NCBI GenBank assembly: GCA_038049695.1
Contig: CP142451.1
Span: 10,476,001 to 10,540,000 of the forward strand
DNA from: Cinnamomum chago
Taxonomy: Eukaryota > Streptophyta > Magnoliopsida > Laurales > Lauraceae
Length of the DNA stretch: 64,000 nucleotides
Direction: 5' to 3'
Shown: positions 12,289 through 40,650 of the stretch, one piece after another
How the letters are laid out: the number at the start of each line of letters is the position of its first letter
Numbering within the stretch: position 1 is the first letter of the stretch
The notes under the pieces: model-generated
Databases searched by the model: none
What the model saw: only the letters and a program-made list of their open reading frames with translations
What the model was told of the DNA's origin: nothing
Made by a program: the position numbers and the translations under genes

Positions 12289-12442
12289 TATGAGGCCTAA
12301 TTTGTATCATTCCCTCCCTCCATAGTGGCCACATATCCAAGTGGGCTCCAATTGAATCCAGCTCACAGCTGCATCACGTACGTCGATCACGGAATAGGCA
12401 CGGGCTCCACAAAGTTCATCAATTTCACCATTTCCGAGTTTC

Positions 12443-12450
12443 TATAAAAA
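12443..12450 (+). promoter_or_regulatory. TATA box of the block X1 gene
   Basis: TATAAAAA lies 70 bp upstream of the ATG at 12520, a normal plant spacing. It is conserved in the second copy (36876-36883). A CACGTACGTCGATC stretch lies about 60 bp further upstream. Confidence 0.65.
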
Positions 12451-12519
12451 GGCTGCACGTCCTCTTCAAGGCCAATCTCCTTTCTTTTTTCTTATGCGGT
12501 GAGGTGAGAGAAGAAAGAG

Positions 12520-12897
12520 ATGGGAGGAGAAAGAGAGGGTGAAATGGAGGAAAAGGCACAATCAGGTGCTTTCTATTTTTTCTTGTGTAGATCTGTTGCT
12601 CTTTTTCTCTTTTGACCTTTTTTTTTGTTTTTATTTTATTGGTGTTTGAGGAAATCGGCAGACTCATCTTCTTCTCCCAATTTAGTTCCAAAACCCCAAA
12701 TCTCACCCATCAAAACCCTAAACCCCTCCTCCTTCAATCCATCGTGCAATGAGGGTTTAAGAAATGCAACCTTAAGGAAGGGCCCAAATAAATGGGTCTT
12801 TGATCCTCTCATTTTACTTAAGAAGAAATGGGATGGGAGGAATCCATCTGCTGATACACCACCCATCATCCTCCAACTGCCAAACCACCATTCCTAA
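12520..12897 (+). CDS. Predicted small two-exon protein, function unknown (copy X1)
   Basis: Exon 1 (12520-12565) encodes MGGEREGEMEEKAQS and ends at a GTGCTT donor. Exon 2 (12662-12897) follows a TTGAGGAAATCGGCAG acceptor in matching phase, giving 93 residues. The protein has a Ser/Pro-rich first half and a basic Trp-containing C-terminal part (GPNKWVFDP, LLKKKWDG). No signal peptide or membrane segment is seen, and I do not recognise the family. A TATA box at normal distance, in-phase splice sites and an equally open second copy support a gene. A non-coding transcript remains possible. Exon-like pieces downstream (near 13043-13079 and 13423) have splice-like borders but follow the stop codon. 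Confidence 0.45.
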
Positions 12898-13838
12898 GTC
12901 CTCTTTCTTCCAGATTCCCCTTTAAAAGGATCTTATATTTTTATGTTACCTTTTTTTTTTTTTTTTTGTAAAATCCGTATTTATTTATTGGTCTGTAGGA
13001 CTTGCTCTTACTATGATTAGTTCTATCATGTTTATCTGTTGTTACAGCGACTACGAAGGATTTGGTGGTATAGGAAAAGGTATGTTTTAAGATTTTCTTA
13101 AACATGTATATTATTCTGGTTGCTCAAGCTATTATGTATGTTACAGATGTTTTACTGGTTTTTCTAATAGATAGCTATAACAATGGAATGTAAGAGAATT
13201 TTTGTTGGAAAGAATTAGATTTGTTCTTCTTACGTAAAGTGTAACATATTGTTATTCTGTAAGTGCAATCTGGTGTCATAAAGCAGAATTTTGGGACTTT
13301 TCTTTTATAATTTACTAATATAAATTTAAAAGCTCTCATGGTAGACCTAAAGACATGTTCCTGGAAATCTAATTGTTGAACTTGAAAGTATGTAATTAAA
13401 TTTTATGTTTTTTATCATTTAGATGTCACTGAGACTTATCTTTGCAATCTTTGGTGCTCTTATATATTGGTCAAAGACAAGTTCTACATGATGCATTATT
13501 TAAAAAGAACATTTAAATAGAATTGGTCTTATCAATAAAAGATCATGCATGTGACACCACTTGACAGCCCTTGAAAACAAATATCCCAGTTCTTTTGGGT
13601 TTACGTGGTTTGTAGAAACGAAGCTCGGAGATGAGGGCAATCAGTTTGATTTTCTCTCTGCAAAAATCATAGAATCTAACACTTTTGATTTATTTTCTAT
13701 TTTCATGCTTGTGAGGGTTCTCAAATATATGGATGGAGACGGAAATCAGGGCAGGATTTTGGGGATTTAGGTGATTTAGGATTTCTTTAATGAGAAAGTG
13801 AGATGAGTTGGTGCTAGAGAATAAGAGGATGAGAAAGT

Positions 13839-14535
13839 TGTAAGACCCCGACTCCACCTTGGTAGGTTTAGTGCTTAATCAACCTTGATTTGGCACCTAA
13901 TATTTGTTTTGGAGGATTTGATGAAGGATTAATTAGGTTAGTGGGGTTTGACCAAAGTTAGATAGAGCTATGACCTTTTAATAGTTTCAATCATGTATGT
14001 GTATTTATAGCATTAGTGGTTCATGTGCATTTCATCAAACATCTTCCCTACATCATTTCCACAATTAGACCCAACTCAGCCCATCTCCAGACCCAAAACA
14101 AACCAAGGGCATTTCCATCAAAGAAGGTTTTTTTTTTTCCAAATTCCAGTCAATCAAATGGACTTGCATGCAAAGTCCACCAAATACCCATTTTAAAACC
14201 CCGTCATGCCACGTTTTCCCCTTCACTTCCTGCTTCATCCACTTCCTCACAGAGAGAGCTTCTTCGCTCCTTTCTTTCTTCTTCATTTCTTCATTTCCTT
14301 TCCTATCTAGCCTAATACAACTAAGAGAATGAATGCTTGTAAGGATTTCCTACCCATCTTCATCTTCAATCTCTCCTATCCTCTACCACAAGCAACATAT
14401 CTCTCAAGCAATTCCCATTGGCAAAGTTCTCATTCAATCACCATTTCCTTTCTTCCAAGCAAACTTAGTTGATTGTGCATGTTGATTTGAAGAACTTGAA
14501 GCATCGCCCATCTCCAAATTCGGCATCTTCTCCAA
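13839..14535 (+). mobile_element. LTR-like fragment (fossil), in block X1
   Basis: The sequence opens TGTAAGACCCCGACTCC, the style of 5' end seen in many plant Gypsy LTRs, and runs into pyrimidine-rich leader-like sequence. Copy X2 extends the same sequence beyond 38954. No gag or pol sequence adjoins it, so it is an isolated fragment. The family assignment rests only on the terminal motif. Confidence 0.4.
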
Positions 14536-16909: not shown

Positions 16910-19900
16910 TGTAACACCCCGCCCCCTAATGGCCTATTAATTATAATTAATTGTTTGATTAGTTAGTAAGTTAGTTTAGAGTCTAAATAGTTGGGTTTAA
17001 CGCCGGAACTCGTGTGCGAAGTTTCGCACGATTCGGAGCGCGTTTGGGTAGGATAGAGGTCTTTTTGCTAATTGGGTAGGGTTTCAGGGAATACAAGAGA
17101 TTATGAGTTTTGTGAGTTGGGTGCATTGGGTAAGTTTCGTCGTTTCATGAACTTTAGCCTTCGGTCGCGTTTCGATTCGACGCGTCGAAGAGGCCCGAAA
17201 TTCATCAAATGTTAATTTAGGCCGACCCGGAACTTGACCCATCAACCAAAGCCCAAGTCCAAAGCTCAAACCCAAAGCCCAAGCCCAAGATCCATTTACT
17301 TAAGTATCCTACCAACCCACTTACACTTATCTCCTTTTCATTCAATCCCATTTACTCAACTCAACAACTATCCCAACACAGCAACCGACTCATCTCTTCT
17401 TCCTTTCCTTCATTTCTTCTTCTCCGTCGACGAGCACCGGAGCTCCGGCGAAGGAAACAAGTCCACCCATCTTCTTCCTCAAGTCTTCAAGAGTCCAACC
17501 ATACACTTTTCTCCTTGTTTCACCCACAACCCACTTAAAGGTAAGCTTTCAAAGCTTGAAAACTATTTCATCATCTTCTTTCTTAGTTAGAAATGGAGTA
17601 GATAGGCTTACCTTGACCCTTGGCATGCATTTATAGGAGCTTGTTGGATTTGGAGGGGTGTTACACCTTTTTGGAGCTTCAAAGTGTTTTCCTTCCTCAC
17701 TTTCTTCTTGACTTTGAGTTCATCGCATCACTAAGGCAAGTCAATAGCTATATTAATGCTTGATATGTTTGTTTACCTTGATTTGGATGCTTAAATCATG
17801 TTTTAGATGTCATTGGCTCAATTAATACTTTAGAATGTTGAAAACATGATAAATTGGCTTATAGTTTGAATGGAATGGATTTAGAGTTTGATGAAGTGAT
17901 TAGGTAGTTTTATGGATCTTAGTTGAGGTGTTTTTATCCATATATGTGATGCTTATCAGGTCCAAGAAGAGAGAAATGGGAAAAGTCCCATTTCAGCCCA
18001 GAACAGGGGCTGTGCCCAGTTTTCGCAGGCCAGCCGGTCGACCGGCCTGCAGGGGCAGGTCGACCGGGCAAGCAGGGGCAGGTCGACCTGCGGGTCGACC
18101 TGACCTTCTGCAGTTTTCTGCAGAATTCCTTCTGTGAAGGATTTTTACCCTGTCTTGTGTGGACTTTGGTGGACCTTTGGATACCCCTTTGTGGACTCAT
18201 TGGACTTATTGTGAGGACGTCTTGAGCCGACGTTCGTCACTGTTGATTCGGTTGTATCGGAATCCAACCTAGTTCAATCTTGAATGGTACGGGACAACGG
18301 GATACTCTTCTTTAAATTTATGCACGAAGATTGTTCGTCCGAGTATCGCGAACCCTAACCCCTTCGTTGACTGAATAGGTTGTGCGATGCTTCAGGGTTG
18401 ACACTCTACTTAGTATTGGATTGTTTATTCGCTTTGATTCCGAATGGTACCTTCGGGTACTATCTTCTACATGTGATGAGCATGTTCTTTAGTTCTATTT
18501 GCTTTGCTTTATTAGAGGATCCTTTCTGAGAACTTAGATGATGGACTTAGGATCCCCTTTGATGTTTCATTTTGTTTCGATGTTCGTTTGAAGTGTTGAG
18601 GCTAGGGAGCTTTGATTGTTAGGCTTAAAGAGGACTACTATTGATATTTGTTTTGAGTTCGATTTGATTTGGAATAAAGTAGTTCTCTATTGGTATTGAA
18701 TCTTGTTCGCGCAAGAAGCCTAGCCCTTCACAGATGTTTTAGGATTCTTTGTGTCAGGCACCACTCAGCTGTTAACGTTCAACACAGTTGTAGCACCGAC
18801 TGTGGGAGAACCCGATACCACCTCGAAGCAAGATAGAGCCAGAGCTCACGGAGCCCGAGCTACTTGGTCCTCAAAGCAAGATAGTGCCAGAGCTCTCGGA
18901 GTCGGAGTACTTGAGCTATGAGTTGTTTGGATATTGGATATTGGGTTTCATCCCAATTGATGATATAGATTAGCATATGTGAATCGCCTACTTTGATAGT
19001 TGTTTATGATTCGAATGCAATGTATCTCTTCCGATCAGAGTGCTATGCATACTTTATGATTTTGGTTATCATTCATTCTCTTTAGTACTGCATATCCATG
19101 TGATTTCTATACCTATTGCTTTGCCATCCGTTGTGTTGATGATGCTATTCTTGGTGCATAGGTACCGAGCTCTATTACCCCGGAGAGGAGGAGACGACGG
19201 AAGAAGTTCAGGCAGATCAGCCTGATGACTTCTTAGAGTATAGTACGGATGGCATTGTATAGCCGTGACGACCCCGTACACGAGAGCTACACGATTATCC
19301 TCCTAGCTTCATCTTTTGGTTGCTTTATACTCTTGTGCAGGCCTAGTTTTAGTTTGGCCTTTTACTTGTAATTAATATTTTGTAATAGTCTTAAACTTCA
19401 ACCTTAACTTTGATACTCAGTATATTGCTCGTAAACTATACATCTATAAGATACCTCTTGTTTTATGAAGCTTCCGCTATTGTTTGATATATTCGAGGAA
19501 ATGTTTATACCTCACAGCGGTCTTCGATCCAGATGGGACACGATTAGGGCAAGTGATATGTTATTATCATTGGAAAAGTTTTAAATTGGCCCTAATCTCA
19601 CGCATAATCCCGGTTTCACTTTTGGGGGCGTGACAAGTCGGTATCAGAGCAGTACTGGTTTCTAGATTAAAAACAAGTAGAAACTTAAGACGTGTGAGGA
19701 TTGGGTTTTCGTTGGGTATCTTAGCTTGTGTAGATTGTATAGTTTGTATGTTAGATTGAGTCCCATAGGACTAACATGTCTTTTCTTGCAGAATGGCTGG
19801 GGGACATACTCGTTCTACTCAGAACAATGATCAGGCTGGGTCTAGTGGAGATGGATCAGCAGAGGCTAGATTCAATCAGCTTATGCAGGCCTTTATGGAT

Positions 19901-20525
19901 TCCCAGACAGCACAGGCTCAGACTCAAACACAGCAGCGGGAAGAGCAGAACAAGCAGCGGGAGGATCAGGCTACCTTCCAGGCTCAGATGCTGCAGTTCT
20001 TGCAGAGGCCAGCCCCGGTACCTCAGGTCATCATCCCTCCTAGGGTGATAGACTTGAATGATATCTATGACAAATTCAAGAAGAGGAACCCGCCAGTGTA
20101 TTATGGGAATGAAGACCCACTCGATGCTGATGAGTGGGTGGTACAGATGGAGAAGATCTTCAAGGTCTTCCAGTGCACCGGACGGGAGCGTGTGCAGTTG
20201 GCATCCTACATGTTCAGAGGAGTGGCAGAGCTATGGTGGAAATCGGTCATGACTCCTTATGACACGATTGAGGATGCTGAGGCTTGGATGTCTTTTCAGA
20301 CACTTTTTCGAGCCAAATATATTCCACCCCACGTTCAGGCTCAGAAGCTGATAGAGTTTGAGTCGTTGGTTCAGGGAGCGGACCCAGTGCAGATCTACGA
20401 GCAGAAATTCACGAACCTCTCGAGATTTGCACCATCTTTGGTTCAGGTTGAGGCGGACAAGGTGATGAGGTTTATTCGGGGACTGAGACCCGATATTCAG
20501 ATGGAGGTGACATCTGTTACCTTAG
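16910..20525 (+). mobile_element. Gypsy-type LTR element fossil: 5' LTR, PBS, partial gag
   Basis: A long LTR begins TGTAACACCCCG (16910) and ends GGGGCGTGACA (19635), about 2.7 kb. Four bases later comes CGGTATCAGAGC, a primer-binding site complementary to tRNA-Met. A gag frame opens at 19793 (MAGGHTRS) and includes a retrotransposon gag domain (DEWVVQMEKIF, LASYMFRGVAELWWKSV). Similarity stops near 20525, with no protease, polymerase, integrase or 3' LTR. The copy is therefore 3'-truncated. LTR style and gag suggest a Tekay/chromovirus-like lineage. Confidence 0.88.
18020..18110. repeat. GC-rich palindromic cluster inside the Gypsy LTR
   Basis: Repeated motifs CCGGTCGACCGG, GGGGCAGGTCGACC and GGTCGACCTG form short self-complementary units in a ~90-bp G+C-rich island within an otherwise moderate LTR. 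It lies well downstream of the expected transcription start. Confidence 0.7.
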
Positions 20526-20639
20526 TCATCCGATATTCTCTCTAATGATTGTTGTTATAATATGAAAATTAATAAGATAATAATATTATGAAATATCATT
20601 ATTGTCATTATCATTGTCATAAAATTAAGATACATGTCC

Positions 20640-21443
20640 CATAGTTATCAAAATCCTATGATTTGTATCCTGAATCCCAATTTGTATCCTGAGTATTAAG
20701 GAAAATGATTCGTATCTATGTAACAAATCCCATTTATAGATGAATCTTAGGATTCAAATGTGAATCTTACAATTCGATACTTGTTTTGTCGAATCTTACG
20801 ATTAAAGCAATGCAGCCGAGTGAGAATAGCTACAACCGCTAAATTAATATTAACAATCTTTTAAGTTTGTTTGTTTCTTTATTCTTTTTTTCTTTTAGCG
20901 TTTTAACTTTTAAATGTTATTTAGTAGTTAATAAAATTTCTTAATAAGAATATTCACAGCTTTAGGGGGGTTTTAGATATAAATAAAGAACTTGCATTTA
21001 ATTGAAGTGTTTGACTATACGTATGGTGCGTGTCTATATCTTCTTTTTAATCTTTTTTTGTTTTTTCTTCATAAACACTTTTTTAACTTAAAGAGATATC
21101 CTACTGTGTAAGATTAATGGTTTGGATTTAATTTTTACTTTTATATTTTGATTTAAGTATAGATTAATACCTTAAACTTATTGAATCACAGATCATTTAT
21201 TTTGTATTAATATATGCCGTGGTGTTCTTGATATGATTGTATGATAGACTTATTTGTCATTGTATTTTTACTGATATAAATGGACAAATGATGGTTATGA
21301 ATAACTACTTGTTTTTTAATTTATAATTTTTTTCAATTTTATTAGAATAATAAAGAATCCTATGATTCGCGATACAATTCACGATTTGATTCGATTCATG
21401 GGTATGAACGATTTGTGATATGATTTTGATTTTCAAAACTATG
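20640..21443. mobile_element. hAT-like MITE, copy 1 (8-bp TSD)
   Basis: An 804-bp AT-rich element starts CATAGTTATCAAAATC and ends GATTTTCAAAACTATG. It is flanked on both sides by the exact 8-bp repeat ACATGTCC (20632-20639 and 21444-21451), as expected for hAT insertion. The interior holds repeated CGATTC/GAATCG-like words and no transposase. Shorter relatives lie at 22988-23414 and 32162-32603. Confidence 0.85.
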
Positions 21444-22896: not shown

Positions 22897-25800
22897 ATTG
22901 AAGATGTCTAATTCAAAACGTTACTTTGATCCAACCCCCCCCTTTTCCTCTTCTCAAGTTTCCCGTCTTTTAGTATATTGTGATGAGCATAGTTATCAGA
23001 ATTCTACGATTCGTGTCCCGAATCCTAAGGAATTCTATGATTCTTCATGAACACTTTATTAATTTCAAGCGATATGGTACTGCGTAAGAGCGATGTTTTT
23101 TTTTTAAACTTCTATATTTTGATTTAATGATAACAAACACTATATATATTGATACTTCAAACTTATTTAACTAATTACACATATGTCATGATGTTCTTGG
23201 TATCTTTTTATGATAGACTTATTTGTCATCGTATTTATATATCTTTAAATGGGAAAATGGATGGTTTTGAATAACTACTTTTCTATTTTTCATTTTAGTT
23301 TTTAATTATTTTCATTCTTATTAGAAAAAAAAAATTCTTAAAATATGCGATACGATTCAATTCGATTCATGGGTATGAATGATTTGCGATATGATTCCGA
23401 TTTTCAAAACTATGGTGATGAGATACTGAATCTTGTAGTGTTTAGTTAGTCATAGACGTAACCAAAGAACAAAGAAGATAACTGGGATTAATAAGATATT
23501 GAATTGGCAATGGAGAAGAAGTTACTCCATCAAGGAGGCGAGTTTCCATTTGAGCTGAACTCTATAAAGACTTAGAATGCTACGAAAGAAAACATGTAAC
23601 TGTTGGCGAATACTACACTTCTTTGCGTTCTGATGGCAAAGAACAAGGCCTTCATTTTTTTTTTTCCGGAAAACTTCAAATTGAATTACTCCCAAAGAAC
23701 ATACTAAGCTAAATTCCTCACTTGTCTCTTTTGAACACAGGTATGACAGAACCTTCTTCAGAGAAGGAACCGCTCATTCCCGAACAGGGAGATAGAGTAA
23801 CAGAACACGCTGTTGAAGTGGTTCATACACAAAGCAATCATCAGAATGAACAAGCACATAATGAGGAACACCAGAGCATAAGTCAAGAGCAACTAGAAGG
23901 GGAACGACGACTTGCTAGCAATCTGACAGAATTATTTCTTTTCCTCATGTTCACGGGGATTGAACTACCTTGTTCATATGTTTGGAAAATAGTGTGTATT
24001 TTCATATATGCACTCACAGGCGTTGTTTTTCCTATTTTCTTAACAAGGAAATATCATGCTGATTTCCTTGTTATGTCGTCGGCGGTGCTTGGTATGCACA
24101 CTTTTTTTTCAGTCATATGTTTTACCCATATTTCATGTAGAGTATGGAAGGACGGGACGAAGAGTTATCTGCTGCTTCTGGAAAAACTAACCAAATGTGC
24201 AGTAGCTTTTCATGGGGAATACACAGCCAAGATCAAGGTGAGTAATGCTAAGAATCATTTTTACCTTTATTAATTTATTTGAGTTGTATTTGATTCATTG
24301 TGTTTTTCAATTCTACTTGAAACTTGAGACCCAAAACAGCCCCAAATTACTGAGTTTCTACTGTTGCAGGGGCTGGGTAAGCATTTGAACATAACAATGG
24401 TAAAATTGTGTTACCCCAAATTTTGTGTGGGGAGTAGGCAGTAATGTCGCCAGTTTTTTGTGCCACAATTGATGGGCCCAAATAGATGTGAACCTGCTTG
24501 GGATCATGACCATGAGGGTTGCCCAGAAGTGTGCTATAACCTGGAAGGTGCATCACTTGATCAGGTGCGCCATGTGGGTTGACCAGGCTTGCAGAAGATT
24601 TTGGATTGTTGACTGTTCTTTCCCATTTTAACTGCCAAATTGATCCTTTAACTTCTCTATATTTAGGAATAACTAGTGGGCAATGCACGTGCACGGAATA
24701 TAGAGTTTCACTAAGATAATTCGAAAAAATAAAGTTATTGGACAATTCATGGTAATGATCCCAATGGAGAAAGACCAACTTACTTACCAGCCTAATTATT
24801 TTGATAAATTGATCAATTTGCAATAACTCATTGTGCTTATGAAATTCAGTAGAAATTTCAATAGAAAGAATTTAAAGAAGATTGAATAACAATGGTTGAA
24901 AAAAAGTTGCAAACGCACAAATGAGTACGCTAAACACTCGCCAATTTGAATATAGATAAATTATTGAGACCTTTTTTGAACTAAGATTTGTCTAAAACTT
25001 AGCGCCAAATAAATACCAAATTCATAAATTCATGTTGAGAAGCATCAAATGTCAGTAATATGAATAAAAAGAAATTTGAACACCATGGAAAGGAGCGAGA
25101 TTAATATCTCAAAATTAGAGTTAGAGCAATGACTTAAATATCTTTCTTGAATTAAGGTGACACAACTACCAAATTTTGAACTCAAATTGAATTTTTCCTT
25201 GTGAACAAGATAAAAATTTAATAAATCCATCCAAACTTGTGGCACTTCTTTTTTGCGTTTTATGTGTCATAAATCAATTCTATTAGATTCTAATTTTGTA
25301 GGAAGTGAAGCTGTCAAATAAATAGCATAGTTTCAGCCTAGACAACCAACTACAAAGAGATCTTTAGCCATGCACTCGCAGGGTGGGCACAACTACTTCC
25401 TTCAAATTTCCTAAGAAAATTTAATGGAAAATTCATTATCCTAGCATTATAGTAATGTGGTTGCAACATTGGATTAATCAGCAGGAATCACCTCCAAGAG
25501 TAACATTGGCGTGGCCTAAGATAATGCCTTGCTGAAGATTGTATCATACGTATGCTGAAAATATAGAATGTTAGTTAGGATTAAGTACTTAGTCCTTGGA
25601 TGCTTTTTTGTTGAGAACAAGACTCCTGTGGAACAATAAATATTAATACTTAACATGGTTCACTCTAAATGCCTGACAGATAATGAAAGTTATAGAAATA
25701 TTTTTTGAAAAAAGGTTTCAAAACGTTGAATACACTAAATTTATCAAATACTATAGGCAACTATGAACCAGAAAAGGGCTTGAGTACTGTTTAGGAGACC

Positions 25801-27478
25801 AGAGATATGAAAGTTTCCATCATCCTGCAGTACACATAGCAACAAAGCAAAGAAAAAAAAAAAAAACACTCAATTGGGTAAACTTAAACCTAATAAAAAA
25901 AATCCCACAATCGAGGTGAAAAGAGAAGTCCACAAGGCCTTGTCTACTCTACCAAATTGAGCAGTGGTGGTTTAGAGACCACATGTACAAAAGGTTACAT
26001 CATTCTGCAGCATATAGCAACAAAGCAGAGAAGCAAAGAGAAGACCACAGCACAGACACATGAAATAAAAATCCACAAAAGATGCACCAAGAGGTGTTAG
26101 TCTCAATCCAGCCTCAGTTCAGTATCAATTCACTTTTCTAAAACCAATATTCTCATTCTGTGTTTGGTTTTGAGATGTTTGGATTGGTAGTTAGGCACTT
26201 CCACCAAGTACCAGTGCTCATTTGAAAATCAAGCTTCGCGTGGCTAAGTACCTAGTGCATCAATCCCAATGAAAATTTTTAAACAATCAAAAGAAGGAGA
26301 AATAAAAAAAAAAAAACCCAAACACGTCAAAACCATTTTCAACTATAGTAGTGTCATTTCCAGTTTAAAGTTTCAACAATAATTCATTGGGAAGAGAAAC
26401 CTTGGCAGTTGACATTTAAATTCATAACCTATTCTTAACAAAATGGATAAAAGTTCAAGAATCTGCTCTTTACAACATATCTACTCTTTAAATCCATAAC
26501 CTATTGATGCTTGGACCTGGATTTTTTCCTTTACAGGTGTGTGTATAATTTCTCTGTTTCCTTTTCTTTGTTTAACATAGAACAACAGTTAATTATATAT
26601 CAGTTATGGTCTAGTATGATGTGGTTAAGACTCTATTCGAGGATTATATAGTACATAGCTTGTGAATTATACTGTTATTGGTGATTACACATGTGGAGCT
26701 TGTTTCTGATATGATAGACTTACATAGAATGACAATTACATACATCTCATCTATGGTTCTAGTTAAAGGTGACTCAATGTATTTATTTGAGGATTATAAA
26801 GTATGCAGTTTGTCAATCTGACTGTTTATGGTAATTTTTCATAGTGAGTAGTATTATAGACTCTTCTTTAAAGTATTTAGATTGTTAACACTTTGGCTGG
26901 AGAATTCCCTAGTTGTTCAACTATAGTTAGTTAATCCAGAGGGTCATATAAAAAATAGAAATATTGACCATAAAAGATGAATATAAAAGAATCCAATATT
27001 CAATATAATTTAGCAATTAACAAAAGATTTAGAAGGATGGGAAGCAATCTCACTAACATTCCATCCTAACCATTTTTTCAAAAAATAAACAAGAAAGTCT
27101 CAAAGCTAGTTGAAAAGATTATTGTAGTTGGATTAATGGCATAATGCATGTGTGATCAATGACATAAAGCACATGTGAACTGGAAGAAATAAAAATCACA
27201 CAATGATCTAATTATCAAGACAATCACACTTGGTTCCAACATCAAGTCATAAAGTTCGTATGCATATAGTTATTTGCTTAATGAATAACATCGCCAGTTG
27301 AGAATAAGAGACATAAAAAGAAATTAAAATTAAATTCTAAATAGTAGAATAAAAGACAATTAATTACAGCAAAACATAGTACAGTATCCCAAAGTTTTTT
27401 TGTGCCATATGCATATTTCAAACTAAAATAACATCTTGAATGACAAACCTTTAGATTGAAACGAGAAGCAAACATATA
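22897..27478. repeat. Duplicated block Y, copy 1
   Basis: This block is repeated in direct orientation at 32072-36700. It contains a hAT MITE, exon 1 of the DUF3537-like gene and about 3.2 kb of its first intron. Similarity begins at ATTGAAGATGTC and stops abruptly at AACATATA. The intron part is almost identical between copies, while the exon is visibly more diverged. Confidence 0.93.
22988..23414. mobile_element. hAT-like MITE, copy 2 (8-bp TSD)
   Basis: A 427-bp member of the CATAGTTATCA...TTTTCAAAACTATG family, flanked by perfect 8-bp GTGATGAG repeats (22980-22987 and 23415-23422). It lies just upstream of the DUF3537-like gene and is shared with block Y2. Confidence 0.88.
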
Positions 27479-30400
27479 TTAAAACATGGGACAAAACTAA
27501 TAATAATAAATCAAGGAATAAATCTACCGTAAAAATGTCATCCAACCATTTTTTTGACAAGTAAATTTTTTTCACTCATTAGTGCTTGGATCCAAATTCC
27601 ATAAGAAGCTCACTCTTAAGCTGATGCACGAGAAAGAGAAGCCAGAGATGCGGCGACAGATTCAAATATTGACTTCAATGCACTGCCTAAATAAAATTAA
27701 ATCATTTTCTTAGTATTAGAAAGGAAATGAAAGATAAATGGATAATATTTTAACAAATGATGTAATTAAGGCAAGAGAACATGAATGCCCATCTCCAATC
27801 TACACCTAAAGAAAATGTCCATAACGACCATTGTTTGTTTTTAAATTGAAAGAAACTTAACAACCATATGAATACATGTCTTTTTGAACAAAACATTGTT
27901 CCTTTATCAACATGAGTTTATTTTTATAAAAATAATCATAGTAGCCTTTTTTTTCTTTTTATCTCCTATTTATTGTTCCGGCATAATAATCCAGTTTTTT
28001 TTTTCTCCTATTTGCTATTTCATTTTTTTAAATGAGGATAGAGATATTTTTTTTATAAAATGAGGATATTTCTACAGGCATTATGCAGTGTTTCCCACTA
28101 TGACAAGATTAAATTATTCGAGTAAGATTCTTATTACATTACCCAACAATCATTTGATTTCATTCTTTTTTCTTCATCCCTACAATTTGGTTCCAATGCC
28201 ATGAATGTCATTAATGCTACTGAAAGAAAATGAAAAGAAAGCAAATCAGCAATCACCGAATCTTCAAGATTTGAAGCTCGCGTACAAGAGACCTTAGGGC
28301 CCTTGAAGTTTAGGAAAAGAGAAAATTGAATAACACCCACTTACAAATTAAGTCGCGAACAATGAAAGAAGGGATCTTTAGTTGAAAAAACAAGAAAAAA
28401 GTTCATCAGATTAAAGAAAAATAAAGAAACCAGAAGAAAGGGACAAGAAAAACTAAAATTCCAATCAATCAAGATACATGGAAGTGATGGAAAGGGGAAA
28501 GGACTTGTATGTATGTCTAAATTTGATCACTGTATTTGGTGTTATTGGGGCAGTTCTTTGTGTACTTGCCTGGAAAAACCCAGTTTCTTGGTAATGGTAG
28601 GCCGATGCTTGGGGAACAGTTTTTGTGAGTTCTGTCATTTTTGTTTCAACATATTCTGCTAAAAACTCAATACTTTTTTTTCTCTTTATCACTTGTTTAC
28701 ATTCTATATTAGAGCTTTTACTTTATTGATTATGTTTTGGGAAATCGGAATTGGTGTTATTTTTTTAATGTATTGGGACTATGGTATTGAAATTGATACT
28801 AAAATTTTATTTTTGGACGAATGTTCTTATTCTGTCTGGGGATAGATTATGGTGTGAGTTTGCTAGCCTGCACTAAGGTATGTCTGGATGAGGAGAAGAG
28901 TTGGAGAAAATGGGAGTGGTAAAGCTATCCGTGATATGGAAAAGGACATCCTTTTGCAGTGTTATCCTGCTATATCAACTGGGCAAATATAGGGGAGTTA
29001 TTAACAATTAAAGGAGCTGAGTTAATGCAAGGTGTTGCATACCCAAACCTAAAGGTCCCATGAGGAGCTATAACCACATTCTTTCCAGAATTGAAGGGTA
29101 ATATCCAAATCATAGCTCCCTTTAGGTAGAGTTGAGCTTAATCAGCTTCTTCTTATGTGAGACTAAATGAATACTAAGAGTTCCACCTTTGTCTACTGAC
29201 AAACAACAATGAACTTTACTGAAAACAAAGATAATATAATGCAAGTGGAGATGATATAGGAGGCCATACCAAAACAAAGCACAGAAAGGGGAAAAAACAG
29301 AGAAAGAACAAGAAACATACAAACTATGTCTATCAGCATTCAACACGCTATCTTGCTAATGGATATGCAATAGCATTAGCCTTTCTAAGTGTATGCTTGA
29401 AATGCATACCCAAAGAAGCCATCTCTCTTGATTCTTTCAAAATGTTAGCATTCCATGGATGCCTGGTCTGCTTTGAGACCAATCTATAGAATCTGCAACC
29501 CACCCTTCGCAATCAAAGGCCCTGAGAAAGATTCTTTGAACATCCTCAAGTCTTTCCAGATGATTGATCCTTATTGATAAGAATTCCATATTAACAGTCA
29601 TCCCACATGATGGATCATCAAATATAATAACCATCAACTGATCAAAGCTCCCAATGCCATCACCATCATTAATGCTGTAGAAAGACAATGAAAACAAACC
29701 CAAATTAGCAATCACCAAATCTTCAACATTTGAAGCTTGAGTACAATAATCTCCTTTAACAAATATTAATGCACTGCCCAAATAAAATTGAAATATTTTT
29801 TTGGCATTAAAAAGAAAATGAAAGATAAATAGAAAAATGGCCATATCCTGTCTACACAAACAGAAAAAATGCCCATCTCTATCCCTATATTGAAGCATTT
29901 TCTTCTCAAGTAAGCTTGTTTGAATCATTGTTTGTATTAAAAATGAAGCAAAAATGATGAACCAGATGTTAGTGCCAGGGAGGAGGGTTTGGATGGACAA
30001 GAACGGAAAATTGATATTTGGAGATGAAATCGGGAAAGTGGAAAGCCCCAAATGCTAATTCCTTGTGTTTTCCCTTACCAGTTGGGGTTGCATGCACGTG
30101 CCCTAACTTGGGGTGTGTATACAGAAGTGAAATAATGAGTGCTAAAAAAAGCACTAAAATCAGGGAAGCACAAGAAATAATCTCTTACGAATGATCCATC
30201 AAACCACAAAAAGGAATATAATTTTTAAAAAACAGAGAGAAGAAAAAATCAGATGTAGAAGCAAATCACATTTTAGGGTTAGAATTCACATAGGTTCCCA
30301 TTTAGCATTACGGGATTTTTTTCAGAGAAAGGCTTACCTTGTGACCATGGCTGTGTGTCTCACTTTTCTCTATTAGAATGTGTTGTTGTAGAGTGTTTTG

Positions 30401-31764
30401 GAGTGGCGGGCATAGTAGAAGAGGTGGAAACCTATTCTCAACAAATATAATAGAAGAAAGAATCCCATCAGATACAATAAGAAAATTAAACAAAATGCCA
30501 AGGGATTTCTCATGGATTATTACGGTGAAATGCAGAGGCCAGAGCTTTTGGTTTTTTGAGAGGAGGAAGAGTTGTCGGTTTGCTTCAGTTCTCATGCCTT
30601 CCAAATTTCAGAATTCGTGGCTCATATAGATGTGCCTTGCAAGGTGAGTTGTCCCTTACCAGATGAGCCACAATCTAAGATGCATGCAACTGGGCCCACT
30701 TGAGGTGTGTAGAGAAAGTAAAAAAGCAGGACAGTTCTCTTTTATAAGGGTAGATAGATCTTGCTTGCAGTGACAAGGAGGGCTGATTTTATTGAGATTT
30801 TTTGGGTTTTCTTGATCTTATGTGAATTGTAACGGTTGACTGTGTCATACTTGAATAATTTCTATCCTTTCCTGTTTTTGTTTGATTTTAGTAAATCATG
30901 GTGTCTTGCTAGCACAAGTGGCACAATGGTGATAGGATTTTCGAGATAGTTGTCTTATGTTTTTCTTTTGTTGTGAAGCATTATAATAGACGGTTATGAA
31001 AATTGGCTATTGATTATATTCACAATAAAATGAAAACCTGTACAATTATATAACCTTACTAAGAGTTTTTTTTTTTGCAGAGTTTTCGGTTTTCTTGGAT
31101 CTGTTCATTGATATCATGTTTGGTGGCGAGAGGCATCTATGAGATTGTTCGGCTAGTGTTTATGCCAAACATATCTTGGTTGATGATCCTGGTTTCGATT
31201 CTTTCTTTCATAGCATGGACGTTCTTGAGTATGACCATCCTATCTGCATGCAACTTTTTTGGTTTGGCATGCAGATTGGTCATTATTCCATTGAAAGATT
31301 TTGAAGGATATCTAAATCAAGGGCTACCTCCATCTGATATTTGGGAGGAATTGAAGTCCATAAGGAGTAATGTGCTGCAGATCAGTTCTAATTTCAGTTC
31401 GTTTCTTCTCCTTACTTTCTTGGTGGTAAATGTAAACTTCACGTTGATAATGCTTCACTCTTTGGCACACAATGAGATGATTCATGTAGTCACCAATTGC
31501 GATTTTCTTGTAAGTATTTTTTAGTATGTACATTTTACATATTATTTATTCTTTTTTATTTATGCAATTTTTTTACTAACCTAAATGTTTTATATGGACA
31601 GCTATATGCAATTGTCCAGGTTTTTTGTCTTTCGATTTGCTTGCGTTCTGTGGCAATCGTGTCCAACGAGGTTCTAGACATCACACCACTACTATGTGCA
31701 TGGCGTGTCAAAAAACTATTATGTTCTAATGATGGTGCAGATGATACGATCACTCATGGCTTAT
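23743..31764 (+). CDS. Multi-pass membrane protein, DUF3537 / plant gustatory-receptor-like; last exon not found
   Basis: Three exons are readable: 23743-24237, 31081-31509 and 31602-31764, with GT/AG borders; the first two junctions are in phase. Exon 1 follows an acceptor ending AACACAG, so a 5'-UTR exon is likely. The 362 readable residues start with an acidic, hydrophilic N-terminus (MTEPSSEKEPLIPEQGDRV). Six hydrophobic segments follow near residues 82-100, 108-130, 168-190, 197-227, 271-294 and 309-328. The segment IWEELKSIRSNVLQISSNF before TM5 and LRSVAIVSNEVLD after TM6 resemble plant DUF3537 proteins, distant relatives of insect gustatory receptors, as I recall them. The family's seventh membrane segment, in a C-terminal exon, is not found before block Y2 begins at 32072. 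The gene is either 3'-truncated or continues past the duplication. Intron 1 is 6.8 kb. Confidence 0.6.
27479..31080. other. Remainder of DUF3537-like intron 1, with diverged internal duplicates
   Basis: This part of the intron is not in the X/Y duplications. It holds two diverged copies of one sequence: 27660-28300 resembles 29650-29960 (shared AATGCACTGCC, ATTAGCAATCACC-like and ATCTTCAACATTTGAAGC words). The minus strand at 29437-29690 has a coding-like frame (RLEDVQRIFLRAFDCEGWVA) that I cannot place. It may be a relic of another gene. The rest shows nothing clear. Confidence 0.4.
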
Positions 31765-32161
31765 GTATGTATCTCTCTTTCTTCTAAAACTATAATCATA
31801 CTCTTAGATGCTAGAATATGGATGCTAAATGGACATTGAAATACCCATCTGCTTTCCCAATAACCCCATTTGCATTGTGATCCATCATTTTGGGAACTTT
31901 GGAGTGTCGTGCATATTTGTGAATGGATAATGGATTGCCAACAAATTTATTCTTATTAATTATACATTTTTTATTCATAGTTAGGTTACATTTGGAGTCG
32001 GGATAAAAAGGAAAATGAAGAATGAAATAGCAGCGAAGAAGTAGGAAAGGCTAAAAGAACATGAGCAATCAATTGAAGATGTCAAATTCAAAACGTTACT
32101 TTGATCCAACCCCCCCCTTTCCTCTTCTCAAGTTTCCTGTCTTTTAGTATATTGTGATGAG

Positions 32162-32603
32162 CATAGTTATCAGAATTCTACGATTCGTGTCCCGAATCCT
32201 AAGGAATTCTACGATTCTTCGTGAACACTTTATTAATTTCAAGCGATATCGTACTGCGAAAAAGCGATGGTTTTTTTTATTTTTTTATTTTTAACTTCTA
32301 TATTTTGATTTAATGATAACAAAAACTATATATATATTGATACTTCAAACCTATTTAACTATTTACACATATGTCATGATGTTCTTGATATCATTTTATG
32401 ATAGACTTAATTGACATCGTATTTATACATCTTTAAATGGGAAAATGGATGGTTTTGAATAACTACTTTTCTATTTTTCGTTTTTTTTTTTAATTATTTT
32501 CATTCTTATTAGAAAAATAAAAAATCTTAAAATATGCAATACGTTTCAATTCGATTCATGGGTATGAATGATTTGCGATATGATTCCGATTTTCAAAACT
32601 ATG
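32162..32603. mobile_element. hAT-like MITE, copy 3 (same insertion as copy 2)
   Basis: A 442-bp element with the same ends and the same 8-bp flank GTGATGAG (32154-32161 and 32604-32611) as the copy at 22988. The insertion therefore predates the block Y duplication. Confidence 0.88.
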
Positions 32604-32953
32604 GTGATGAGATACTGAATCTTGTAGTGTTTAGTTAGTCATAGACGTAACCAAAGAACAAAGAAGATAACTGGGATTAATAAGAGATTGAATTGGCAAT
32701 GGAGAAGAAGTTACTCCATCAAGGAGGCGAGTTTCCATTTGAGCCGAACACTATAAAGACTTAGAATGCTACGAAAGAAAACACATAACTGTTGGTGAAT
32801 ACTACACTTCTTTGCGTTCTGATGGCAAAGAACAAGGCCTTCATTTTTTTTCTTTCTGGAAAACTTCAAATTGAATTACTCCAAAAGAACATACTAAGCT
32901 AATAAAGCCTATACTAGATAACAATTCCTCACTTGTCTCTTTTGAACACAGGT

Positions 32954-33444
32954 ATGACAAAACCTTCTTCAGAGAAGGAACACTCATTCCCGAACAGGGA
33001 GACAGAGTAACAGAACACACTATTGGATTGGTTCATGCACAAAGCAATCATCATGATGAACAAGCACATAATGAGGAACAACAGAGCATAAGTCAAGAAC
33101 AATTGGAATGGGAATGACGACTTACTTGGAATCTGAGAGAGTTATTTCTTTTCCTCGTGTTCACGGGGATTGAATTACCTTGTTCATATGTTGGGAAAGT
33201 GGTGTGCATTTTCATATATGCACTCACCGGCGTTGTTTTTCCCATTTTTGTAACCCCGAAATATCATGGTTATTTCCTTGTTCTTTCATGGGTGGTACTT
33301 GGTATGCATACCTTTTTTTCAATCATATGTTTTACCCATATTTCACGTAGAGTATGGAAGCAAGGGACGAAGAGTTATCTGCTGCTGGAAAAACTACCCA
33401 AACGCGCAGTAGCTGTTTAGGAGGAATACACAACCAAGTTCATG
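32954..33444 (+). pseudogene. Broken exon 1 of the DUF3537-like gene (copy Y2)
   Basis: It aligns with exon 1 at 23743-24237 through the same acceptor and a GTGAGT donor. Relative to copy 1 it has a one-base deletion near codon 9 (GGAACACTC for GGAACCGCTC). A CGA codon has become TGA near residue 55, and TAG appears near residue 157. The open remainder (FTGIELPCSYVGKVVCIFIY) still shows two membrane segments. No downstream exons follow, because Y2 ends within the intron. It cannot encode a full protein. Confidence 0.85.
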
Positions 33445-36400
33445 GTGAGTAATGCTGAGAATCATTTTTACCTTTATTAATTTATTTGAGTTGTATTTGA
33501 TTCATTGTGTTTTTCAATTCTACTTGAAGCTTGAGACCCAAAATAGTCCCAAATTACTGAGTTTCTACTGTTGCAGGGGCTGGGTAAGCATTTGAACATA
33601 ACAATGGTAAAATTGTAATACGCCAAATTTTGTGTGGGGAGTGGGCAGTAATGTCGTTAGTTTTTTGTGCCACAATTGATGGGCCCAAATAGATGTGAAC
33701 CTGCTTGGGATCATGACCATGAGGGTTTCCCAGAAGTGTGCTATAACCTGGAAGGTGCATCACTTGATCAGGTGCGCCATGTGGGTTGACCAGGCTTGCA
33801 GAAGATTTTGGATTGTTGACTGTTCTTCCCATTTTAACTGCCAAATTGATCCTTTAACTTCTCTATATTTAGGAATAACTAGTGGGCAATGCACGTGCAC
33901 GGAATATAGAGTTTCACTAAGATAATTCGAAAAAATAAAGTTATTGGACAATTCATGGTAATGATCCCAATGGAGAAAGACCAACTTACTTACCAGCCTA
34001 ATTATTTTGATAAATTGATCAATTTGCAATAACTCATTGTTCTTATTAAATTCAGTAGAAATTTCAATAGAAAGAATTTAAAGAAGATTGAATAACAAAT
34101 ACATATTGAAAGGAAAATGGTTGAAAAAAAAGTTGCAAACACACAAATGAGTACGCTAAACACTTGCCAATTTGAATATAGATAAATTATTGTGACCTTT
34201 TTTGAACTAAGATTTGTCTAGAACTTAGCGCCAAATAAATACCAAATTCATGTTGAGAAGCATCAAATGTCAGTAATATGAATAAAAAGAAATATGAACA
34301 CCATGGAAAGGAGCGAGATTGATATCTCAAAGTCAGAGTTAGAGCAATGACTTAAATATCTTTCTTGAATTAAGGTGACACAACTACCAAATTTTGAACT
34401 CAAATTGAATTCTTCCTTGTGAATAAGATAAGAATTTAATAAATCCATGCAAACTTGTGGCACTTCTTTTTGCGTTTTATGTATCATAAATCAATTCTAT
34501 TAGATTCTAATTTTGTAGGAAGTGAAGCTGTCAAATAAATATCATAGTTTCAGCCTAGACAACCAACTACAAAGAGATCTTTAGCCATGCACTCGCAAGG
34601 TGGGCACAACTACTTCCTTCAAATTTCCTAAGAAAATTTAATGGAAAATTCATTATCCTAGCATTATAGTAATGTGGTTGCAACATTGGATTAATCAGCA
34701 GGAATCACCTCCAAGAGTAACATTGGCGTGGCCTAAGATAATGCCTTGCTGAAGATTGTATCATACGTATGCTGAAAATATAGAATGTTAGTTAGGATTA
34801 AGTACTTAGTCCTTGGATGCTTTTTTGTTGAGAACAAGACTCCTGTGGAACAATAAATATTAATACTTAACATGGTTCACTCTAAATGCCTGACAGATAA
34901 TGAAAGTTATAGAAATATTTTTTGAAAAAAGGTTTCAAAACGTTGAATACACTAAATTTATCAAATACTATAGGCAATTATGAACCAGAAAAGGGCTTGA
35001 GTACTGTTTAGGAGACCAGAGATATGAAAGTTTCCATCATCCTGCAGTACACATAGCAACAAAGCAAAGAAAAAAAAAACACTCAATTGGGTAAACTTAA
35101 ACCTAATAAAAAAAATCCCACAATTGAGGACCATGAAAAGAGAAGTCCACAAGGCCTTGTCTACTCTACCAAATTGCACAGTGGTGCTATAGAGACCACA
35201 TGTACAAAAGGTTACATCATTCTGCAGCATATAGCAACAAAGCAGAGAAGCAAAGAGAAGACCGCAGCACAGACACACGAAATAAAAATCCACAAAAGAT
35301 GCACCAAGAGGTGTTAGTCTCAATCCAGCCTCAGTTCAGTATCAATTCACTTGTCTAAAACCAATATTCTCATTCTGTGTTTAGTTTTGAGATGTTTGGG
35401 TTGGTAGGTAGGCACTTCCACCAAGTACCAGTGCTCATTTGAAAATCAAGCTTCGCGTGCCTAAGTACCTAGTGCATCAATCCTAATGAAAATTTTTAAA
35501 CAGTCAAAAGAAGGAGAAATTAAAAAAAAAAAAAAACCCAAACATATCAAAACCATTTTCAACTATAGTAGTGTCATTTCCAGTTTAAAGTTTCAACAAT
35601 AATTCATTGGGAAGAGAAACCTTGGCAGTTGACATTTAAATTCATAACCTATTCTTAAAAAAATGGATAAAAGATCAAGAATCTACTCTTTACAACATAT
35701 CTACTCTTTAAATCCATAACCTATTGATGCTTGGACCTGGATTTTTTCCTTTACAGGTGTGTGTATGATCTCTCTGTTTCCTGTTCTTTGTTTAACATAG
35801 AACAACAGTTAATTATATATCAGTTATGGTCTAGTATGATGTGGTTAAAGACTCTATTTGAGGATTATATAGTACATAGCTTGTGAATTATACTGTTATT
35901 GGTGATTACACATGTGGAGCTTTTTTCTGATATGATAGACTTACATAGAATGACAATTACATACATCTCATCTATGGTTCTAGTTAAAGGTGACTCAATG
36001 CATTTATTTGAGGATTATAAAGTATGCAGTTTGTCAATCTGACTGTTTATGGTAATTTTTCATAGTGAGTAGTATTATAGACTCTTCTTTAAAGTATTTA
36101 GATTGTTAACACTTTGGCTGGAGAATTCCCTAGTTGTTCAACTATAGTTAGTTAATCCAGAGGGTCATATAAAAAATAGAAATATTGACCATAAAAGATG
36201 AATAGAAAAGAATCCAATATTCAATATAATTTAGCAATTAACAAAAGATTTAGAAGGATGAGAAGCAATCTCACTAACATTCCATCCTAACCATTTTTTT
36301 CAAAAAATAAACAAGAAAGTCTCAAAGCTAGTTGAAAAGATTATTGTAGTTGGATTAATGGCATAATGCATGTGTGATCAATGACATAAAGCACATGTGA

Positions 36401-36875
36401 ACTGGAAGAAATAAAAATCACACAATGATCTAATTTTCAAGACAATCACACTTGGTTCCAACATAAAGTCATAAAGTTCGTATGCATATAGTTTTTTGCA
36501 TAATGAATAACATCGCCAGTTGAGAATAAGAGACATAAAAAGAAAGTAAAATTAAATTCTAAATAGTAGAATAAAAGACAATTAATTACAGCAAAACATA
36601 GTACAGTATCCCAAAGTTTTTTTGTGCCATATGCATATTTCAAACTAAAATAACATCTTGAATGACAAACCTTTAGATTGAAACGAGAAGCAAACATATA
36701 AACGAGAAGCAGTCATTGATTTATGAGGCCTAATCTGTATCATCCCCTCCCTCCATAGTGGCCACATATCCAAGTGGGCTGCAATTGAATCCAGCTCACA
36801 GCTGCATCACGTACGTCGATCACGGAATAGGCACGGGCTCCACAAAGTTCATCAATTTCACCATTTCCGAGTTTC

Positions 36876-36883
36876 TATAAAAA
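36876..36883 (+). promoter_or_regulatory. TATA box of the block X2 gene
   Basis: TATAAAAA at the same distance from the ATG (36952) as in copy X1. The promoter was duplicated with the gene. Confidence 0.65.
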
Positions 36884-36951
36884 GGCTGCACGTCCTCTTC
36901 AAGGCCAATCTCCTTTCTTTTTCTTATGCGGTGAGGTGAGAGAAGAAAGAG

Positions 36952-37328
36952 ATGGGAGGAGAAAGAGAGGGTGAAATGGAGGAAAAGGCACAATCAGGTG
37001 CTTTCTATTTTTTCTTGTGTAGATCTGTTGCTCTTTTTCTCTTTTGGCCTTTTTTTTGTTTTTGTTTTATTGGTGTTTGAAGAAATCGGCAGACTCATCT
37101 TCTTCTCCCAATTTAGTTCCAAAACCCCAAATCTCACCCATCAAAACCCTAAACCCCTCCTCCTTCAATCCATCGTGCAATGAGGGTTTAAGAAATGCAA
37201 CCTTAAGGAAGGGCCCAAATAAATGGGTCTTTGATCCTCTCATTTTACTTAAGAAGAAATGGGATGGGAGGAATCCATCTGCTGATACACCACCCATCCT
37301 CCTCCAACTGCCAAACCACCATTCCTAA
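36952..37328 (+). CDS. Predicted small two-exon protein, function unknown (copy X2)
   Basis: The second copy of the 93-residue gene. Exons are 36952-36997 and 37093-37328, with the same donor, acceptor and phases as copy X1. The two reading frames are almost identical; one visible replacement is Ile to Leu near the C-terminus (PPIILQLP versus PPILLQLP). Both frames stay open even though the intron has accumulated small indels, which mildly favours real coding. Function is unknown, and no domain, signal peptide or membrane segment is seen. Confidence 0.45.
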
Positions 37329-38258
37329 GTCCTCTTTCTTCCAGATTCCCCTTTAAAAGGATCTTATATTTTTATGTTACCTTTTTTTTTTTTTTTTGTA
37401 AAATCCGTATTTATTTATTGGTCTGTAGGACTTGCTCTTACTATGATTAGTTCTATCATGTTTATCTGTTGTTACAGCGACTACGAAGGATTTGGTGGTA
37501 TAGGAAAAGGTATGTTTTAAGATTTTCTTAAACATGTATATTATTCTGGTTGCTCAAGCTATTATGTATGTTACAGATGTTTTGCTGGTTTTTCTAATAG
37601 ATAGCTATAACAATGGAATGTAAGAGAATTTTTGTTGGAAAGAATTAGCTTACGTAAATTGTAACATATTGTTCTTCTGTAAGTGCAATCTGGTGTCATA
37701 AAGCAAAATTTTGGGACTTTTCTTTTATAATTTACTAATATAAATTTAAAAGCTCTCATGGTAGACCTAAAGACATGTTCCTGGAAATCTAATTGTTGAA
37801 CTTGAAAGTATGTAATTAAATTTTATGATTTTTATCATTTAGATGTCACTGAGACTTATCTTTGCAATCTTTGGTGCTCTTATATATTGGTCAAAGACAA
37901 GTTCTACATGATGCATTATTTAAAAAGAACATTTACATAGAATTGGTCTTATCAATAAAAGATCATGCATGTGACACCACTTGACAGCCCTTGAAAACAA
38001 ATATCCCAGTTCTTTTGGGTTTATGTGGTTTGTAGAAACGAAGCTCGGAGATGAGGGCAATCAGTTTGATTTTCTCTCTCCAAAAATCATAGAATCTAAC
38101 ACTTTTGATTTATTTTCTATTTTCATGCTTGTGAGGGTTCTCAAATATATGGATGGAGACGGAAATCAGGGCAGGATTTTGGGGATTTAGGTGATTTAGG
38201 ATTTCTTTAATGAGAAAGTGAGATGAGTTGGTGCTAGAGAATAAGAGGATGAGAAAGT

Positions 38259-39350
38259 TGTAAGACCCCGACTCCACCTTAGTAGGTTTAGTGCTTAATC
38301 AACCTTGATTTGGCACCTAATATTTGTTTTGGAGGATTTGATGAAGGATTAATTAGGTTAGTGGGGTTTGACCAAAGTTAGATAGAGCTATGACCTTTTA
38401 ATAGTTTCAATCATGTATGTGTATTTATAGCATTAGTGGTTCATGTGCATTTCATCAAACATCTTCCCTACATCATTTCCACAATTAGACCCAACTCAGC
38501 CCATCTCCAGACCCAAAACAAACCAAGGGCATTTCCATCAAAGAAGGTTTTTTTTTTTCCAAATTCCAGTCAATCAAATGGACTTGCATGCAAAGTCCAC
38601 CAAATACCCATTTTAAAACCCCGTCATGCCACGTTTTCCCCTTCACTTCCTGCTTCATCCACTTCCTCACAGAGAGAGCTTCTTCGCTCCTTTCTTTCTT
38701 CTTCATTTCTTCATTCCCTTTCCTATCTAGCCTAATACAACTAAGAGAATGAATGCTTGTAAGGATTTCCTACCCATCTTCATCTTCAATCTCTCCTATC
38801 TCTACCACAAGCAACATATCTCTCAAGCAATTCCCATTGGCAAAGTTCTCATTCAATCACCATTTCCTTTCTTCCAAGCAAACTTAGTTGATTGTGCATG
38901 TTGATTTGAAGAACTTGAAGCATCGCCCATCTCCAAATTCGGCATCTTCTCCAACCTCAAGCTTCATTCATCATTATCTTCTCTATACCCATTTCTTTGG
39001 TAAGCTTTCTTCCTTCTAAGGTGTTGTATAACTTAGTAACATTGGTTGGAAGTCAATGACAATGCATGCATACTGATTTCATCCCATTTCAATCAATTCA
39101 CCATTGTAGAGATTTCCATATGAGCTAGAAATTGGGTTTTTTGCTTAAATAGAGTCACATAAGAGATTAGCTTTGGAAAGCTCCTAAACAAGGCAAGTAA
39201 TGAGCAATTTTGATATATATATATATACATGTGATTAATTCGTTAATTGAGTAATATGATTTCATTAAATGTTATATTCAGCCTTTTTCCTTTGAATTGG
39301 ATTATAATGTTAAATGGGTTTCATATAAATGTGTTATGAGAGATGAAATG
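38259..39350 (+). mobile_element. LTR-like fragment (fossil), block X2 and beyond
   Basis: Same TGTAAGACCCCG start as the fragment in block X1, but running on past the end of the duplication into TTTGGTAAGCTTTC and AT-rich sequence. No primer-binding site or protein sequence was found after it, and the right end is uncertain. Confidence 0.35.
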
Positions 39351-39640
39351 GTTATAGGATGATGAATAGATTGTATATGAACCATTGCAGTCTCAAATCA
39401 TATTTAAATGGTCTATGGAATGATCTGGAGTTGAGTAGGAAAGAATGGAAAGAAGGGGATGGAGAAACAGTGCAAAAACCAAACAATTCTAACATGTCTT
39501 CCAGTGCTTTTGCACGAGGCATATCTAAATGGGCAATGTATCTTGTTGTATCACATTCGATACTTCACTTTTTATGTATAAAATCAGTGTCGCTGTCGTA
39601 TTCATGGCATTGCCCTCTTGTATCAGTATCTGAGCATCAC

Positions 39641-39852
39641 AGATCTCAACTACCAATTGAAAGTATTTCTCATGGTTACTTGGAAGGACTGATTTGCACT
39701 ATACATAGTTGGGTCATATTGCATGTAGTGTTGTTATAATGCATGTAGATCTCAACTACCTATTGAAAGTATTTCCCTTGGTTACTTGGAAGGACTGATG
39801 TGGACTATACATAGTTGGGTCATTTTACATGTAGTGGTGTTATAATGATTGA
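39641..39852. repeat. Tandem duplication, 2 x 106 bp
   Basis: AGATCTCAACTACC followed by TTGAAAGTATTTC and TGGTTACTTGGAAGGACTGA occurs at 39641 and 39747. The copies differ at a handful of positions. The plus-strand frame through it (39359-39739) shows no recognised protein. Confidence 0.88.
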
Positions 39853-40637: not shown

Positions 40638-40650
40638 CCCTACACACACA

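Follow-up and report, generated by a model that had tools for sequence, protein, structure and literature searches.

A divergent first exon within little-diverged duplicate segments of a DUF3537 gene in Cinnamomum chago

In the primate L/M (red/green) opsin pair, two nearby duplicates, the exons are more diverged than the introns at both synonymous and non-synonymous sites, a pattern that is attributed to conversion of the introns together with selection keeping the exons apart (PMC3213168, PMC3924837). The GOT1p1 and GOT1p2 duplicates of Tigriopus californicus carry a mosaic of high and low divergence that is described as the product of gene conversion, including inter-paralog transfers (PMC3728101). 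Here we describe a contrast of this kind in a 64,000-nucleotide stretch of the Cinnamomum chago genome (assembly GCA_038049695.1, contig CP142451.1, positions 10,476,001-10,540,000; hereafter the window), where two copies, Y1 and Y2, of a segment carrying the first exon of a DUF3537 gene differ several times more in that exon than in the adjoining non-coding DNA. According to PMC7746228, the members of the DUF3537 family, or gustatory receptor-like (GRL) family, are homologs, in plants, of the chemoreceptor superfamily of insects. No literature joining DUF3537 with gene conversion was found in the papers searched.

Like the opsin pair, Y1 and Y2 are nearby duplicates in which exon divergence at both site types exceeds that of the intron. 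As the opsins are described, however, both genes work and the pattern was demonstrated with several species (PMC3213168, PMC3924837), whereas Y2 is a broken, dead fragment, although it may once have functioned, and a single sequence is compared. A mosaic of divergence along duplicates is shared with GOT1p1/GOT1p2, which rest on multi-population data as reported (PMC3728101), while our case comes from one sequence and consists of an island inside one exon. Exon/intron mosaics are thus already known from other duplicated genes, and the Y pair adds a clear case from a family that has received little study. Exon and intron contradict each other on the age of the duplication, and dating from the coding sequence only would give an age several times too old.

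Divergence along the duplicated segment

Comparison of the window with itself by BLAST revealed direct repeats of more than 2 kb in two pairs, which we call X and Y. The Y copies are 95.0% identical over 4648 columns, and their coordinates are exactly those of the segments named in an earlier, sequence-only reading of this DNA. The features that bear on the exon are as follows.

22897..27478, forward strand: Y1, a duplicated segment comprising 5' flank, exon 1 and 3.2 kb of intron 1 (self-BLAST)
32072..36700, forward strand: Y2, the second copy of Y (self-BLAST)
23743..24237, forward strand: exon 1 in Y1, open, 165 codons, encoding the N-terminal part of a DUF3537 protein (translation; a GTGAGT donor follows directly)
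24238..27478, forward strand: the part of Y1 intron 1 common to Y2, 2.0% diverged and mildly patchy
32954..33444, forward strand: the exon 1 remnant of Y2 (alignment and translation; start from tblastn)
23793..24250, no strand assigned: maximum-likelihood divergent tract in Y1 coordinates (two-breakpoint likelihood scan; 57 of 455 sites differ)

The two copies were compared in a MAFFT global alignment from which gap columns were left out. The sequence-only reading had proposed that exon 1 differs at about one site in ten and the following 3 kb or so of intron at only one to three per cent. Both estimates hold: exon 1 (23741-24237) differs at 58 of 493 sites (11.76%) and the intron (24238-27478) at 65 of 3227 (2.01%). 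The 5' flank (22900-23740) differs at 31 of 840 (3.69%), so that the exon carries three to six times the non-coding divergence (Fisher tests, P = 1.1e-20 against the intron and 4e-8 against the flank). Windowed identity is not uniform across exon and intron, and the exon stands out: non-coding DNA reaches at most 4.7% in any 490-site window (4.7% in the flank, 4.1% in the intron) and 6.3% in any 300-site window. The outer ends of Y are little diverged, at 2 of 87 sites for 22897-22984 and 1 of 98 for 27382-27479. The contrast that had been proposed therefore stands, with two amendments, namely that exon 1 of Y2 survives only as a broken remnant and that the low divergence of the 5' flank makes the exon an island rather than the end of a gradient.

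Trivial causes of this contrast were rejected. A second aligner, applied to the exon and about 500 bp on either side, returned the same exon count (58 of 493, against 11 of 499 in the intron and 14 of 492 in the flank), which argues against alignment error. Decay of CpG sites is not responsible, since the contrast survives their removal (exon 45 of 457, 9.85%; intron 56 of 3175, 1.76%; flank 22 of 793, 2.77%), and base composition is not the cause, as GC and AT sites are both raised in the exon. At 82.1, the observed scan statistic exceeds the largest values from 2000 permutations of sites (27.4) and 2000 shuffles of 20-bp blocks (40.9), none of which (0/2000 in each case) matched the contrast.

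The two-breakpoint model (likelihood ratio 84.7) describes a bounded tract with sharp edges, resolved to 64 bp on the left and 19 bp on the right. Within 2 log-likelihood units the left edge lies at 23749-23812, inside the exon, and the right edge at 24232-24250, at the splice donor; relative to the donor at 24238, a right edge up to 13 bp inside the intron is still compatible. Taken naively, the probability that both edges would lie at these places by chance is 1.2e-4, a rough figure given that the exon had already been singled out by the finding itself. The start of intron 1 is kept in both copies, so no intron has been lost, an observation that is not decisive on a complementary DNA (cDNA) template because a tract confined to a single exon would leave the intron in place. 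That the tract does not cross the exon edge fits cDNA-templated conversion, and other readings expect the same.

Divergence outside the exon is not even. The intron nearest the exon differs at 10 of 273 sites (3.7%) and the far intron at 55 of 2954 (1.86%), and the intron as a whole is mildly patchy (P 0.01-0.09, depending on window size). Its longest run without a difference, 379 aligned sites from 25382, is longer than expected (P 0.01 in the whole intron, 0.026 in the far intron). In the flank, the stretch 22985-23420 around an AT-rich repeat is slightly more diverged (21 of 436) than the rest (2 of 87 and 8 of 320).

Coding signature of the exon differences

Synonymous (dS) and non-synonymous (dN) divergence were estimated over 162 codons (of 164 taken, two contained gaps and were excluded; the final codon lies outside the count). 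With dS at 0.188 and dN at 0.109 (dN/dS 0.58), both values exceed the divergence of the intron (0.020), as in the opsins, and dS does so about nine-fold. Four-fold sites, which differ at 6 of 51, give the same picture against the intron (65 of 3227, P 7e-4) and the flank (31 of 840, P 0.015). The 57 substitutions are distributed 28/8/21 over the three codon positions. In neutral simulations that placed 57 substitutions in 163 codons with the intron's own spectrum (2000 runs starting from Y1 and 2000 from Y2), 18.2 changes were expected at position 2, where 8 are seen (P 0.001 from Y1, 0.0005 from Y2). Insertions and deletions are also rare in the exon, with 2 per 58 substitutions against 16 per 96 in flank and intron together (P 0.034; P 0.065 against the intron alone). 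Together these results say that the exon differences mostly accumulated between two coding lineages, the deficit at position 2 carrying most of the weight: high synonymous divergence combined with depleted second positions indicates that the differences arose mostly while both lineages of the exon were coding.

The Y1 exon belongs to a gene whose next two exons lie between the Y copies.

31081..31509, forward strand: exon 2 of the Y1 gene (the interval 31063-31524 matches PF12056 with E 5.6e-15)
31602..31766, forward strand: exon 3 of the Y1 gene, end approximate (weak PF12056 match alone, 12.5 bits, under the cut-off)

Against the DUF3537 profile (PF12056; gathering score 25 bits, length 391), exon 2 alone scores 55.5 bits, exons 2 and 3 score 79.7 bits over profile positions 118-305, and the joined exons 1-3 score 93.2 bits over positions 21-305, above the gathering score. 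Exon 1 alone gave no DUF3537 match in the profile search. The match reaches further and scores higher once exon 1 is joined, which shows that it extends into this exon.

Relative to Y1, exon 1 of Y2 has a 1-bp frameshift near its start, two in-frame stops and a 3-bp gap. Its differences nevertheless do not look like those of a decayed Y1 exon. When joined to exons 2 and 3, with the residue symbol X at each stop, the Y2 exon scores 100.5 bits to PF12056 and the Y1 exon in the same construct 93.3 bits; none of 19 Y1 exons given an equal number of random changes reached the Y2 score (range 77.9-99.4, with a resolution of 1 in 20). Simple pseudogene decay of the Y2 exon was rejected on the position-2 deficit and, weakly, on these profile scores. 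At the 3-bp length difference the Y2 length is the more family-like, by 4.1 bits in both backgrounds, and Y1 looks like the changed copy; the copy that received foreign sequence could accordingly be either Y1 or Y2.

Origin of the divergent exon

The arrangement of the second copy involves the X repeats.

12289..14535, forward strand: X1, the other X copy (self-BLAST)
36722..38954, forward strand: X2, a copy of 12289-14535 fused directly 3' of Y2 (self-BLAST; 17/2233 differences)
36681..36711, forward strand: the Y2/X2 junction, where AAACGAGAAGCA, at the end of Y2 (36681), recurs at 36700 just before the start of X2

Y2 contains exon 1 and part of intron 1 only and then runs straight into X2. 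The 12-bp junction repeat AAACGAGAAGCA is also present in Y1, at 27459, and Y2 precedes X2 whereas X1 precedes Y1. Repeat and reversed order would suit re-insertion from a circle or template switching better than a simple tandem duplication. X1 and X2 differ at 17 of 2233 sites (0.76%), less than the far intron of Y (P 7e-4), and X may be younger, constrained or converted.

We favour, with a probability of about one half, an origin in which the exon tract of one copy was taken from an older DUF3537 paralog, inside a duplication whose non-coding DNA is young. At a distance of about 9 kb, a young, rearranged duplication would have created a second copy of the 5' flank, exon 1 and 3.2 kb of intron 1; this copy lacks exons 2 and 3 and is fused to a copy of the nearby segment X. 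In one copy, a tract of about 420-500 bp in coding exon 1 would have given way to the corresponding stretch from an older paralog, itself evolved as a coding gene, through interlocus gene conversion or a comparable template switch. The donor may have been either genomic DNA or a spliced transcript after reverse transcription. Two clocks could then be read side by side, the exon recording a deep paralog divergence (dS about 0.19) and its surroundings the shallow divergence of the duplication (about 2-4%). Low divergence out to both outer ends of Y is expected if the duplication is young. We infer the derived location of Y2, and likewise the third paralog, the conversion event, the recipient copy and the nature of the template. 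Should the donor paralog be found, the locus would represent a clean case of exchange limited to an exon, in plant genes whose function is unknown and whose family is kin to insect chemoreceptors.

A number of observations weigh against this account. Only two copies of exon 1 are present in the window, and no donor paralog was seen. A donor at dS of about 0.19 would probably still be alignable in its introns, so that genomic conversion need not stop at the exon edge; taken with the end of the tract at the splice donor, this makes a spliced-RNA template, or an island bounded by selection, slightly easier to accept, though it is suggestive only. Non-coding divergence is uneven (0.76% in X, 1.86% in the far intron, 3.7% in the flank), and the patchy intron suggests that Y1 and Y2 may also have undergone some conversion with each other; this patchiness, like the lower divergence of X, could reflect a degree of exchange, constraint or different timing. 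In the simulations, neither the synonymous excess (P 0.13-0.22) nor the deficit of amino-acid changes (P 0.08) is significant alone, and the two stops of Y2 are about the random expectation (2.95 expected from Y1). The profile scores are a coarse measure, as 7 of the 19 neutral mutants outscore Y1 itself in the longer construct, and a weak polariser in a 132-amino-acid fragment, where Y2 scores 24.4 bits, 2 of 9 neutral mutants beat it and 5 of 9 have no DUF3537 match. A bolder form of the exon mosaic, which we regard as speculative and unlikely, would have a paralog's spliced message, once reverse-transcribed, overwrite exon 1 of one copy, hence the end of the island at the splice site; even dead first-exon fragments of this receptor-like family would then take part in the swapping of exon variants, and pseudogenes would act as a reservoir of exon sequence.

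The sequence-only reading had offered three explanations, a mosaic origin of Y2 from another paralog, conversion restricted to the intron and strong diversifying change of the exon. The mosaic gives the best fit, although a third copy of exon 1 was not found within the window (tblastn, next-best E 0.28). Conversion confined to the intron could be accommodated, but it would need to have reached the 5' flank and the outer ends too, which requires more events. In its fuller form this explanation makes Y1 and Y2 old duplicates (exon dS about 0.19) whose flank and intron were homogenised by repeated conversion between direct repeats, with the exon shielded by selection for two proteins until Y2 died later. 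The same signature is reported for gibbon L/M opsins (PMC3213168), and the theory is treated in a review (PMC3924837); the patchy intron, with its 379 identical aligned sites, and the still greater likeness of X (17/2233) also point this way. It would, however, demand conversion throughout the non-coding DNA, right up to the exon and out to both ends of Y, such that no old island survived, and Y2 is a first-exon fragment with stops and without exons 2 and 3, in which no present selection for two proteins is visible. On balance we consider such homogenisation the main rival to the mosaic, possible but somewhat doubtful.

Strong diversifying change of the exon did not survive analysis, since dS (0.19) exceeds dN (0.11) and second positions are depleted; a comparison of dS with dN, together with the mapping of edges, can thus argue against positive selection without an outgroup. 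More generally, acceleration in place after the duplication, through diversifying selection or a mutation process confined to the exon, could be invoked for the 35 of 163 compared codons that differ in amino acid or stop. We hold it to be the least probable of the accounts, very unlikely indeed, as dS exceeds dN and is roughly nine-fold the divergence of the intron, the position-2 deficit tells against blind mutation, transitions and transversions are mixed (33:24) and the contrast remains without CpG sites. If the duplicated piece had instead come from another haplotype with an old, exon-limited allele under balancing selection, as at major histocompatibility complex (MHC) or self-incompatibility genes, a peak in the exon with raised divergence in the flank (31/840, 3.7%) and near intron (10/273, 3.7%) relative to the far intron (1.86%) would be accounted for. 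The abrupt fall on the donor side, where the right edge is held to 24232-24250, speaks against such an allele, and balanced polymorphism is not known to us from DUF3537 genes, a point counted against it although no search was made; we judge it highly improbable. An artefact of assembly, in which Y2-X2, or its exon only, would be a mis-joined haplotig or a collapsed paralog, appears improbable, if a little less so. Differences of 0.76-1.86%, as in X and the far intron, lie within the heterozygosity of outcrossing plants and are compatible with it. But the order Y2-X2 is unlike that of X1...Y1, the junction bears a 12-bp repeat of a type met at real repair joins, and an error limited to one exon within a long shared sequence is unlikely.

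A possibly truncated gene and its surroundings

Like other members of the DUF3537/GRL family (PF12056), the Y1 gene matches the profile through exons 1-3 (positions 21-305). In contrast to the family, it has no recognised counterpart of the C-terminal 86 profile positions, and its exon 1 alone is unmatched: the joined exons encode 363 amino acids and stop at profile position 305 of 391. A complete family protein would be expected to have about 350-500 amino acids and seven transmembrane segments. Inspection by eye of the forward-strand stop-to-stop fragments of 31580-32200 (at least 15 amino acids) and 38900-44700 (at least 33 amino acids) recognised no C-terminal DUF3537 exon, and a short exon could escape such a search. 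The gene thus looks either truncated, lacking positions 306-391, or as if its last exon had been missed. Y2 starts about 300 bp 3' of exon 3. Any truncation may have been caused by the arrival of Y2-X2. For exons 2 and 3, tblastn gave no convincing further copy in the window (next-best E 0.09 for exon 2 and 1.8 for exon 3), and the hits to a peptide pattern, 11 stretches of viral contigs (IMG/VR) and 38 of genome contigs (GTDB), included no confirmed relative.

A dispersed AT-rich repeat, about 75% alike between its copies, lies upstream of Y (21065-21443) and inside the 5' flank of Y1 (23041-23414) and of Y2 (32215-32603). The blastn match at 21065-21443 belongs to this flank repeat and was rejected as a third exon; an inverted-repeat search around the repeat of the 5' flank found no clear terminal inverted repeats. 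At 1406-1891 the window has a perfect tandem repeat of two 242-bp copies (100% match), which is either very recent or an effect of assembly. Between X1 and Y1 there are remains of retroelements, at 15055-15699 and 19775-20545, with open frames matching zf-RVT and Retrotrans_gag/Ty3 capsid.

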